Of a stretch of DNA of 64,000 bases, positions 49,358 through 52,359 are shown piece by piece. The translations under genes and the position numbers were made by a program. Position 1 is the stretch's first letter. Each line of letters opens with the position of its first letter. The DNA is from Roseomonas sp. (GTDB taxonomy: Bacteria; Pseudomonadota; Alphaproteobacteria; Acetobacterales; Acetobacteraceae), in assembly GCA_020249465.1 (NCBI GenBank), contig JADCFP010000048.1, forward strand, positions 119,139-183,138. The letters are read 5' to 3'. The notes under the pieces were generated by a model, which was not told where the DNA came from, searched no databases, and saw only the letters and a list, made by a program, of their open reading frames with translations.

Positions 49358-51013
49358 TTACTTCACGATCGCGACACGCAACGCATTGGTCGTCCCCGGC
49401 GTGCCAAAGGGCACCCCCGCCGTCACCACCACCTCATCCCCGCTTTTGGCGAAGCCTTCATGCTGCGCGGCGCGTGTGGCGCGTGCCACCATTTCGGTCA
49501 TGGAATGGATTTCGTGCACTTCCAGCGAATGCACACCCCAAATCAGCGCCATGCGCCGCGCGACGCTTTTGCTGGTGGTCAGCCCCAGGATCGGGCAATG
49601 TGGCCTTTCGCGTGCGACCCGAAGTGTGGTGGAACCGGTGGAGCTGAAGGTCGCAATCACCTCGGCTTCGATCGTCTCAGCCACCTGGCGCGCAGCGGTG
49701 GCGATGGCGCCGGCGCTGGAATGCTCGGGCGGTGGGCGCGCGGCATCGGTCAGGCGGCGCCAATCAGGGTCTTGTTCCACCCGCGCCACGATGCGGTCCA
49801 TCATATTCACCGCCTCATAAGGGTATTGCCCGGCAGCGGTCTCGGCTGACAGCATCACCGCATCCGCGCCATCGAATACTGCGGTGCCGACATCTGACAC
49901 CTCGGCGCGGGTTGGGCTCGGCGCAGTGATCATGCTTTCCAGCATTTGCGTTGCCACCACAACAGGTTTGCCGAGTGCACGCGCCGTGCGCACAATGCGC
50001 TTTTGCGCGAGCGGCACTTCTTCCGGGGGCAATTCCACGCCCAAATCGCCGCGTGCGACCATCACGCAATCAGTGAGCGCCATTATGGCATCAAGGTTTT
50101 CGAGTGCCTGCGGCTTTTCCAGCTTCACCATGATCCAGGCGCGCCCGGCGGCGATTTCCTTGGCCTCCGCCACATCTTCCGGGCGTTGCACGAAGGAAAG
50201 GCCGATATACTCAACGCCCTGGTCGAGCACGAAGGCGAGGTCCGCGCGATCCTTTTCCGTCAGCGCCGGAATGGGCAGCGCCACATCGGGCACATTCACG
50301 CCCTTGCGGTCCGAAAGCGGGCCGCCGACCACGACCTGGGTTTCCAGATGATCGGGGCGCTTATGCGTCACGCGCAGGCGAAGCTTGCCATCATCGAGCA
50401 ATAGCGTGGTGCCGATTTGTGCCGCGGCGATGATTTCCGGATGCGGCAAATTGACGCGTCTGGCGTCACCCGGCGTCGGGTTCAGATCAAGCTTGAAACT
50501 CTGCCCCGATTGCAGCTGCACCCGCCCGGCCTGAAAGCGCCCGACGCGCAGCTTCGGCCCCTGCACATCGGCCAATATCCCGATGGGGCGTCCCACCTTG
50601 GCCTCGACGGCGCGGATGGTGGCGATGCGCGCGGCGTGATCCTCATGGCTGCCATGCGAAAAATTAAGGCGAAAGATATCGGCGCCAGCGCGGTGGAGGC
50701 GTTCGATCATCTCCGCGCTGCTGCTGGCGGGGCCCAGCGTTGCGATGATTTTGGTACGGCGCCGGCGGCGCAGAACGGGGCGGGCCACCATGCGGGGCGC
50801 TCCTGTGCTTGGTTCAGAATGGGGTGGGGCGGGCGCCAGATCGGGTCTCAGGCTTGCGGGCGGCAGGTTCAGCGCCTTGGCGATTTCCGACACACGATCT
50901 TCCGGAATGCGCTTCCACTGGGAAACGGCGGCGGTGGAAATGCCCAGAGCGGCGGCGATCTGCTTGACGGTGCCGCGCCGGGCGAGAAGGGCTTCGAGGG
51001 CTGGGTCACGCAT
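49358..51013 (-). CDS. pyk: Pyruvate kinase with N-terminal YdaS-type helix-turn-helix domain
   Basis: Converts phosphoenolpyruvate and ADP to pyruvate and ATP. Residues 75-551 are a full pyruvate kinase: RRTKIIATLGPASSS, FRLNFSHGSHEDH (substrate Arg/Asn), ADVQGPKLRVG, VKLEKPQALENL (catalytic Lys and metal Glu), MVARGDLGVELPPEEVP and VATQMLESMI. Residues about 5-58 are a Cro/YdaS-like helix-turn-helix (GTVKQIAAALGISTAAVSQW, KRIPEDRV, LRPDL), joined by a Pro-rich linker. The frame is continuous. AGGAG with eight-base spacing precedes an internal ATG (Met75, 50791), so a form without the helix-turn-helix may also be made. The start at 51013 has a weak site. It follows glycerate kinase. Confidence 0.93.
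   Translation of the reverse strand: MRDPALEALLARRGTVKQIAAALGISTAAVSQWKRIPEDRVSEIAKALNLPPASLRPDLAPAPPHSEPSTGAPRMVARPVLRRRRRTKIIATLGPASSSAEMIERLHRAGADIFRLNFSHGSHEDHAARIATIRAVEAKVGRPIGILADVQGPKLRVGRFQAGRVQLQSGQSFKLDLNPTPGDARRVNLPHPEIIAAAQIGTTLLLDDGKLRLRVTHKRPDHLETQVVVGGPLSDRKGVNVPDVALPIPALTEKDRADLAFVLDQGVEYIGLSFVQRPEDVAEAKEIAAGRAWIMVKLEKPQALENLDAIMALTDCVMVARGDLGVELPPEEVPLAQKRIVRTARALGKPVVVATQMLESMITAPSPTRAEVSDVGTAVFDGADAVMLSAETAAGQYPYEAVNMMDRIVARVEQDPDWRRLTDAARPPPEHSSAGAIATAARQVAETIEAEVIATFSSTGSTTLRVARERPHCPILGLTTSKSVARRMALIWGVHSLEVHEIHSMTEMVARATRAAQHEGFAKSGDEVVVTAGVPFGTPGTTNALRVAIVK
50791..50803 (-). promoter_or_regulatory. Internal ribosome binding site and alternative start of pyruvate kinase
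   Basis: On the minus strand AGGAG is followed by CGCCCCGC and then ATG at 50789-50791 (Met75), just before the conserved pyruvate kinase start. This site is better than the one in front of the first ATG at 51013, where only AAGATGCCGCC is seen. It would yield a 477-residue enzyme of ordinary length. Confidence 0.5.
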
Positions 51014-51033
51014 GGCGGCATCTTAGCAAAATT

Positions 51034-51083
51034 AAGTTAAGGCGCCACCTAAAATCGGCGCGACTTAACTTTTAAAAGTTAAG
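51034..51083. promoter_or_regulatory. AT-rich palindrome plus third half-site upstream of the HTH-pyruvate kinase
   Basis: CTTAACTTTTAAAAGTTAAG at 51064-51083 is a perfect 20-bp inverted repeat. Its arm AAGTTAAG recurs at 51034-51041, so three copies of the octamer lie within 50 bases. The palindrome overlaps the last codons and stop of the glycerate kinase gene and is 51 bases before the pyk ATG. It is sharply AT-rich in a GC-rich genome, which suits an operator for the helix-turn-helix domain. A terminator is less likely since the stem is AT-only and has no T tract after it. Confidence 0.55.
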
Positions 51084-52359
51084 CTACCAAAAGCGCGCGA
51101 AAATCATTCACATTGGTGAGCGTTGGCCCTGTCACCACCAGATCACCCAGGGTCTGGAACAGGCGATAGCTGTCATGCCCCGCCAACAAGGCGCGGGGAT
51201 CAAGCCCAGAGGCGCGGGCGCGGGCCAGCGTGTCTGGGGTGGCGATGGCGCCGGCATTATCCTCCGACCCATCAATACCATCCGTGTCGCCCATCAAAGC
51301 CCAAATACCGGGGGCGCCGGCCAAAGCCAGCGTGCAGCCGAGCAGACATTCGCCATTCCGCCCGCCCTGGCCTGGCTTGAGGCTGCGGATGGTCACCGTG
51401 GTCTCGCCGCCCGAGAGCAGGATGGCCGGGCCGGGCAGGGGGTGGCCATGGGTCGCGGCGGAACGCGCCATGCCGGCAAGGGCTGTGCCCAATTCCCGCG
51501 CCTCGCCTTCCAAGGCATCGCCCAGAATCAGGGGCGTAAGGCCAAGGCCGCGCGCAGTGGTGGCCGCGGCTTGCAAGGCCATGGCAGGGGTGGCGATGAA
51601 GCGATAATCGGGCGTGCCAAGGCGCGGGTCGCCGGGTTTCGGGCTCTCCTCCACGCCTGCCGCCAGATGCGCCATCACCGCTGATGGTAGCTGCATGCCG
51701 TAATGCGCGATCAAGGCGCGGGCATCGGCAAAGCTGGAGGGGTCCGGCACGGTGGGGCCGGAGGCGATCACACTCGGGTCATCCCCCGGCACATCGGAAA
51801 TCGCGAGCGTCACCACGCGCGCGGGATGCGCCGCTGCCGCCAGCCGCCCGCCGGAAAAGGCGGAAAGATGCCGGCGGATGCAGTTCATTTCATGGATGGT
51901 GGCGCCGGAAGCGAGCAGCGCCTTGTTCACCGCAATCAGCTCGTCCAGCGTAAGGCCTGGTGCTGGCAGCGTTGTCAGCGAAGACCCCCCGCCCGAGACC
52001 AGAAACAGTACCAGATCATCCGCCCCAGCACCGCGCGCCACTTCCAACAATGCCGCCGCGGCCTTGGCCCCGGCGGCATCCGGCACGGGGTGGGAGGCTT
52101 CCAGCACCTTGATCCGCCGTGTCGGGTAGCCATGGGCATAGCGGGTGACGACCAGGCCCTCGATCGGGGCATCGGGCCAGGCGGCCTCTACCGAAGCGGC
52201 CATGACAGCAGCGGATTTCCCGGCGCCCAGCACAATCACCCGCCCGCGCGGGCGTTCCGGCAAATGCCGCGCCAGCACCTGGCGCGGATCGGCGCTCGCT
52301 ATGGCCGCGTCGAAGATTTGGCGGAGCGCTGCGCGGGCGGATGTATCGGTGATTGCCAT
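51079..52359 (-). CDS. gckA: Glycerate 2-kinase (GckA/TtuD, MOFRL family)
   Basis: A 426-residue type-2 glycerate kinase that makes 2-phosphoglycerate from D-glycerate, feeding enolase and then pyruvate kinase. The N-terminal DUF4147 domain shows VIVLGAGKSAAVMA and LVSGGGSSLTTLPAPGLTLDE; NCIRRHLSAFSGGRLAAAA holds the catalytic Lys-equivalent region; the C-terminal MOFRL domain has GGRNGECLLG and GDTDGIDGSEDNAGAI. GAGG lies nine bases from the ATG. The gene is followed by pyk with 65 bases between. The same gene family is often misnamed hydroxypyruvate reductase (TtuD). Confidence 0.94.
   Translation of the reverse strand: MAITDTSARAALRQIFDAAIASADPRQVLARHLPERPRGRVIVLGAGKSAAVMAASVEAAWPDAPIEGLVVTRYAHGYPTRRIKVLEASHPVPDAAGAKAAAALLEVARGAGADDLVLFLVSGGGSSLTTLPAPGLTLDELIAVNKALLASGATIHEMNCIRRHLSAFSGGRLAAAAHPARVVTLAISDVPGDDPSVIASGPTVPDPSSFADARALIAHYGMQLPSAVMAHLAAGVEESPKPGDPRLGTPDYRFIATPAMALQAAATTARGLGLTPLILGDALEGEARELGTALAGMARSAATHGHPLPGPAILLSGGETTVTIRSLKPGQGGRNGECLLGCTLALAGAPGIWALMGDTDGIDGSEDNAGAIATPDTLARARASGLDPRALLAGHDSYRLFQTLGDLVVTGPTLTNVNDFRALLVA

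Follow-up and report, generated by a model that had tools for sequence, protein, structure and literature searches.

Within a 64,000-nucleotide stretch of Roseomonas sp. DNA (contig JADCFP010000048.1; here called the window), the gene pyk encodes a Cro-type helix-turn-helix (HTH) domain fused to a complete pyruvate kinase (PK), and comparison with related genomes indicates that the product, HTH-PK, is an enzyme that likely binds palindromes just upstream of its gene and represses its own promoter. We put the probability of this reading at roughly 0.75. The plus-strand translation of 49358-51013 is interrupted by stops, and the reading frame lies on the minus strand (Table 1). There, the layout proposed by an earlier, sequence-only reading, a single frame with a Cro-type HTH, a linker and a complete pyruvate kinase, was confirmed by Pfam and NCBIfam, and the QIAAALGISTAAVSQW and LRPDL motifs were both found in the HTH part as claimed. 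Pfam P22_Cro (PF14549) matched residues 13 to 44 (E = 2.9e-8; 33.8 bits against a cut-off of 30.2), the PK barrel profile matched residues 85 to 402 (E = 4e-112), PK_C matched residues 436 to 547 (E = 4e-36), and NCBIfam PRK06247 pyruvate kinase matched residues 82 to 550 (702 bits; cut-off 623). The label "YdaS/Cro-type" held in its Cro part only, as Pfam YdaS_toxin (PF15943) stayed under its cut-off of 30 bits with the whole protein (E = 2e-5; 24.8 bits) and with residues 1 to 83 alone (29.1 bits). The HTH also matched 3bd1 and P22 Cro by sequence, and its fold neighbors supported a Cro-like fold. Finally, the catalytic residues were indeed kept: R115, N117, S119, K154, R156, K297, E299, D323, and T355, which we take to be the substrate and metal residues of pyruvate kinase, were invariant across 57 fused proteins; a separate alignment was made with the solved pyruvate kinase 7oo1.

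The palindromes were compared across 80 loci from named genomes, of which 61 were fused, 18 were unfused, and 1 was cut by a contig edge. Allowing at most one mismatch, a proximal site was found in 57 of the 61 fused loci, ending 8 to 11 nt before the ATG, and a distal site was found in 51, lying 37 to 42 bp above the proximal one. Between -500 and +30 in the 18 unfused loci, the sole one-mismatch site was at -133 in locus L102. Exact CTTA-N7-TAAG occurred at 85 sites, all no more than 80 bp from the ATG, and 58 of the 61 fused loci had at least one; nowhere else in the 540,087 bp of the fused loci was there an exact site, and the 162,158 bp of the unfused loci had none. Likewise, in a set of 93 loci, at least one exact site was present in 57/60 fused and 0/33 unfused. 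Over the 80 bp preceding the gene, the density of TAAG/CTTA in the 61 fused loci reached 58 per kb, versus 0.58 per kb elsewhere in them, and the DNA flanking the sites was little conserved among non-redundant loci. A double site (spacer of 20 to 30) occurred in 16 of 35 genus genomes, as a single copy in each and 8 to 9 bp before fused pyk in all 16, and the reversed control pattern occurred in none of the 35. The window's subclade escaped the double-site pattern because its distal palindrome, at 20 bp, is longer and does not match. In the window's own genome, five exact single sites were found (the reversed control gave 36), four inside long open reading frames (ORFs) and the fifth before pyk. 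We conclude from these comparisons that the HTH and the putative upstream operators are present together and absent together.

The position of the proximal site suggests how binding could repress. Of 42 non-redundant promoters, 38 had a good proximal site, and in these its right arm formed TAAGnT (with the last T in 30 of the 38) 6 to 7 nt before the ATG, with a weakly conserved TTGGC/TCGGC-like element 17 to 18 bp upstream. If the HTH binds CTTA-N7-TAAG and the mRNA starts at or near the first AUG, the proximal operator would cover the -10 region, and HTH-PK bound there would block RNA polymerase and turn transcription off. Pyruvate kinase is normally a homotetramer, and a tetramer would present four HTHs to four half-sites in two palindromes roughly 40 bp apart. 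A metabolic enzyme controlling its own operon, and perhaps sensing phosphoenolpyruvate, ADP, or sugar phosphates, had been proposed; the co-occurrence of HTH and palindromes supports control of its own gene, and the operon is narrowed to its own promoter because, of the exact sites in the window's genome, just the one preceding pyk falls outside long ORFs. For that genome, a broader regulon was rejected in a scan confined to exact matches, the other four sites being inside ORFs. We conclude that autoregulation by HTH-PK is strongly supported by comparative sequence evidence.

The fusion is widespread and constrained. Residues 1 to 84 used as the sole query returned 69 proteins, every one of which had P22_Cro plus a PK barrel. 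Among 34 other genomes of the genus, 32 had a match from residue 1; of the other two, G018 had a match that lies at a contig edge and starts only at residue 128, and G027, which is 77% complete, had none. In 200 genomes drawn evenly across the family, a match starting at residue 1 was found in at least 32 genomes and 13 of 91 genera; among the matches listed, none of the others began before residue 23, and 5 genomes gave no match. Fused loci came from Roseomonas (wide sense), Neoroseomonas, Falsiroseomonas, Plastoroseomonas, Siccirubricoccus, Belnapia, Dankookia, Humitalea, and Roseococcus, among others. The HTH extension proved to be in frame in these relatives, as HTH and PK kept a common frame in the 61 fused loci while the linker varied in length, and conservation across many genomes rules out chance or misassembly as the source of the fusion. 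The ratio of nonsynonymous to synonymous substitution (dN/dS; 59 sequences, 1,097 pairs) was 0.33 for the HTH (0.28 for residues 15 to 35), 0.67 for the linker, and 0.21 for PK. I25 and AAVSQW (28 to 33) were invariant in 57 and 30 aligned sequences, and both conservation and dN/dS marked the recognition-helix region as the most constrained part of the domain. The full-length AlphaFold model (mean pLDDT of 77.9) was confident for the HTH and most of PK and weak for the linker and some PK loops. We conclude from these comparisons that the HTH is under evolutionary constraint.

A second start within the fused gene would produce an enzyme without the HTH. A start codon with a Shine-Dalgarno (SD)-like motif was present at the Met75 position in 30 of 45 non-redundant fused genes, and in all but one of these 30 the distance to the conserved RTK motif was exactly 11 codons. 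Control windows gave 214 of 1,395 (15%), or 68 of 1,395 with ATG. In unfused orthologs, the pyk start and SD-like motif lay 10 to 13 codons before RTK in 30/33 and exactly 11 in 24/33, such that the Met75 position of the fused genes is the same codon as the unfused start; AAGGA was present in 16/33, in some directly at the glycerate kinase stop codon. In 29 of the 45 fused genes, the Met75 position was preceded by Gly and, one residue earlier, by Glu (22), Gln (6), or Lys (1); the earlier residue was encoded by NAA in 26 (6.6 expected) and the Gly by GGA in 19 (0.6 expected). The resulting DNA read AAGGA in 19 and AAGG in 26 despite the varying amino acid, and four loci (L081, L087, L090, and L099) had Leu at the Met75 position, encoded by TTG, also a start codon, after AGGAG. 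The rare-codon pattern looks like selection on DNA rather than protein, although the codon and motif tests were picked after the pattern was seen. More loosely, some Met lay between residue 41 and the PK core in 54/59 fused genes. In an SD free-energy test, Met75 sites beat other Met codons (p = 0.005); counting against an internal start, they were not better than synonymous shuffles (p = 0.66), a null that is probably due to the test rewarding GGAGG over AAGGA.

Start and motif were not found together at the Met75 position in the remaining 15 of the 45 genes, and the start codon itself was absent in L042, L050, L051, and L079, in which the full-length form should therefore be the enzyme. The short form thus appears common, not universal. 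We conclude that a shorter enzyme lacking the DNA-binding domain is probably also made from the ancestral start, with the 477-aa PK translated from a buried ancestral ribosome-binding site, and tetramers could then mix subunits with and without the HTH. The earlier concern about a form starting at Met75 thus proved informative: the start looks real in 30/45 fused genes, and the short form would be made in addition to the full-length form.

The same HTH family was found on a second enzyme of the phosphoenolpyruvate (PEP)-pyruvate step, pyruvate phosphate dikinase (PPDK). An initial HTH-PPDK search, covering 385 genomes from the class and 299 from the order, returned other HTH proteins, few of them inspected. 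With the HTH of another fusion (L137) as the query, 23 HTH-PPDK proteins were recovered, and HTH-PPDK was present in 11/248 genomes of one order (L187 to L197), in open frames mostly of approximately 970 to 1,040 aa and one of 549. In all 11 loci, the 150 bp preceding the ATG contained 5 to 8 GTAAG/CTTAC half-sites, totaling 66 in 1,650 bp upstream versus 30 in 36,238 bp elsewhere. We conclude, by sequence comparison, that one HTH family and the same half-site core occur on two PEP-pyruvate enzymes in different lineages as separate fusions. PPDK is the reverse-step enzyme, and its parallel fusion suggests selection for wiring the PEP-pyruvate node directly to DNA. It is an even bet whether the Cro-type domain with TAAG/CTTA operators is a portable self-control module, grafted at least twice onto that node in Alphaproteobacteria, with PK occurring as two subunits whose tetramer would read its own abundance and ligand state at its own promoter without a separate regulator.

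Other explanations would assign the palindromes or the HTH a different role. The HTH could be a structural or oligomerization appendage that no longer binds DNA, with another Cro-type regulator bound at the palindromes: similar HTH folds occur on the metabolic enzymes HppE, HEPD, and MPnS, which were among its fold neighbors, and HTH-bearing open frames of 68 to 98 aa occur in the family. The sites, however, come and go with the HTH, the double site, in genomes that have it, is found once and at pyk, the recognition helix is where constraint is strongest, and a separate PPDK fusion has the same half-sites, and we consider an inert appendage very unlikely. A different possibility has the autorepression step in common with our explanation but supposes that the HTH-less Met75 form alone is made in quantity and that the upstream part is a small autorepressor leader ORF reading into pyk. 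Such a leader would account for the buried ribosome-binding site and rare codons at the ancestral start, but it sits poorly with an HTH that is in frame with PK in 61 fused loci despite a variable linker and with the genes that lack the internal start, and it seems to us unlikely. We judge it similarly improbable that HTH-PK is an activator or a regulator of other genes instead of an autorepressor. Activation would fit the location of the distal site, which ends roughly 50 nt upstream of the ATG, but the proximal site overlaps the -10-like element, and a search for exact sites placed all others in the window's genome within long ORFs.

Autorepression by HTH-PK also has observations to contend with. 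A scan for consensus sigma-70 promoters and terminators found nothing, the -10-like promoter before pyk included. P22 operators have TAAG-type half-sites, and the polarity of CTTA-N7-TAAG is presumably reversed relative to them. Moreover, the co-loss of HTH and operators is thin as a test, with few independent events behind it: the tree of the PK part needed five state changes over 60 fused and 33 unfused rows, and strongly supported branches forced only two. That tree is compatible with one gain and several losses of the HTH.

A tblastn search for remnant HTHs before unfused pyk used five HTH queries and covered 38 records, of which 36 were unfused and some represented one species twice; HTHs were found only in the two fused records, and none of the weak matches in L097, L102, and L119 was an HTH preceding pyk. 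Among the relatives of the HTH are the short open frames mentioned above, HTH-CcdA antitoxins of the same genus, and phage proteins (Komagataeibacter phage phiKM1, 44% identity). The gap between the glycerate kinase gene and pyk was 55 to 213 nt in fused loci (measurable in 41/60) and less than 50 nt in 20 of the 27 measurable unfused loci (of 33), values that are approximate for the unfused loci because the rule-assigned start proved too early in some. The simplest history would be the entry of a small autoregulated Cro-type cassette between the glycerate kinase gene and pyk, with an in-frame fusion that preserved the original pyk start.

Textbooks present pyruvate kinase as a control point on which allostery and separate transcription factors act. 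Here the enzyme apparently serves as its own transcription factor, with operators dedicated to it and another start that would yield an HTH-less form. PutA and BirA are active enzymes with a DNA-binding domain that repress their own genes, a combination that HTH-PK would resemble if the proposed autoregulation holds; to our knowledge, both have other folds and pathways than HTH-PK and neither acts in central glycolysis. P22 Cro, Xfaso 1 Cro, and the YdaS family resemble the present HTH in sequence and fold, the difference being that here the HTH is fused to an enzyme. BzdR of Azoarcus sp. CIB has an HTH-XRE domain fused to a shikimate-kinase-like domain; like HTH-PK, it connects an Xre/Cro-type HTH via a linker to a kinase fold, and it regulates a promoter. 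Its kinase domain is described as lacking shikimate kinase activity and sensing benzoyl-CoA (PMC3602430). In contrast to BzdR, HTH-PK keeps conserved catalytic residues and has a buried second start, and no second full pyruvate kinase was found in those genus genomes that had a match. An extra partial pyruvate kinase C terminus (155 residues, 80% identical) was seen in one genus genome approximately 3 kb from the full pyk (G001:C1:710439-710900). No account of an HTH-pyruvate kinase or HTH-PPDK fusion was found in the titles and abstract starts of open-licence PMC literature. What is new is the operators before fused pyk, the buried Met75 start, and the separate HTH-PPDK fusion; the enzyme-repressor kind itself is already known. 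A single gene and its promoter, together with natural losses that can serve as controls, make the old question of how an enzyme becomes a regulator testable here.

Table 1. Features of the pyk region (positions in the window)
Feature	Positions	Strand	Remarks
HTH-pyruvate kinase fusion gene	49358..51013	minus	ATG to stop; 551 aa plus stop
Cro-like HTH domain, residues 1-58	50840..51013	minus	predicted helices 4-10, 15-23, 27-31, 38-48, 52-55
Linker, residues 59-82	50768..50839	minus	residues 62-81 with pLDDT <50, predicted disordered
Complete pyruvate kinase, residues 83-551	49361..50767	minus	Pfam and NCBIfam profiles; residues 85-549 align with 7oo1
Met75 codon, probable internal start of 477-aa PK without HTH	50789..50791	minus	conserved start and SD-like motif
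Internal SD-like CAGGAG	50800..50805	minus	8 nt before Met75 codon
TAAGAT, -10-like element	51020..51025	minus	overlaps proximal operator, 6 nt before ATG; putative leaderless promoter
Proximal putative operator CTTAATTTTGCTAAG (CTTA-N7-TAAG)	51022..51036	minus	ends 8 nt before ATG
Distal putative operator, perfect 20-bp palindrome CTTAACTTTTAAAAGTTAAG	51064..51083	minus	overlaps stop codon of glycerate kinase gene, sharing bases with the gene end (51079)
Upstream neighbor, glycerate 2-kinase-like gene (DUF4147 and MOFRL)	51079..52359	minus	profile domains

The HTH family was also seen on other proteins. In two genomes of the window's genus, it is fused to CcdA antitoxins (L136, minus strand; L138:621-1025), which share the same small N-terminal HTH (47% and 37% identical) and differ in being antitoxins, not enzymes; no CTTA-N7-TAAG was seen in the 130 bp before either gene. 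The L137 fusion, from another family (L137:120-1847, minus strand), is 575 aa long and has a YdaS/Cro HTH in frame with a bifunctional NAD(P)HX epimerase/dehydratase; immediately before its ATG lie two GTAAG-cataa-CTT repeats. The same HTH fronts proteins of roughly 260 to 290 aa resembling TorD-family chaperones (L139:427-1218, minus strand; L140:657-1517, plus strand); similar plasmid matches carry a TorD annotation, and L157 to L160 have open frames of like length.
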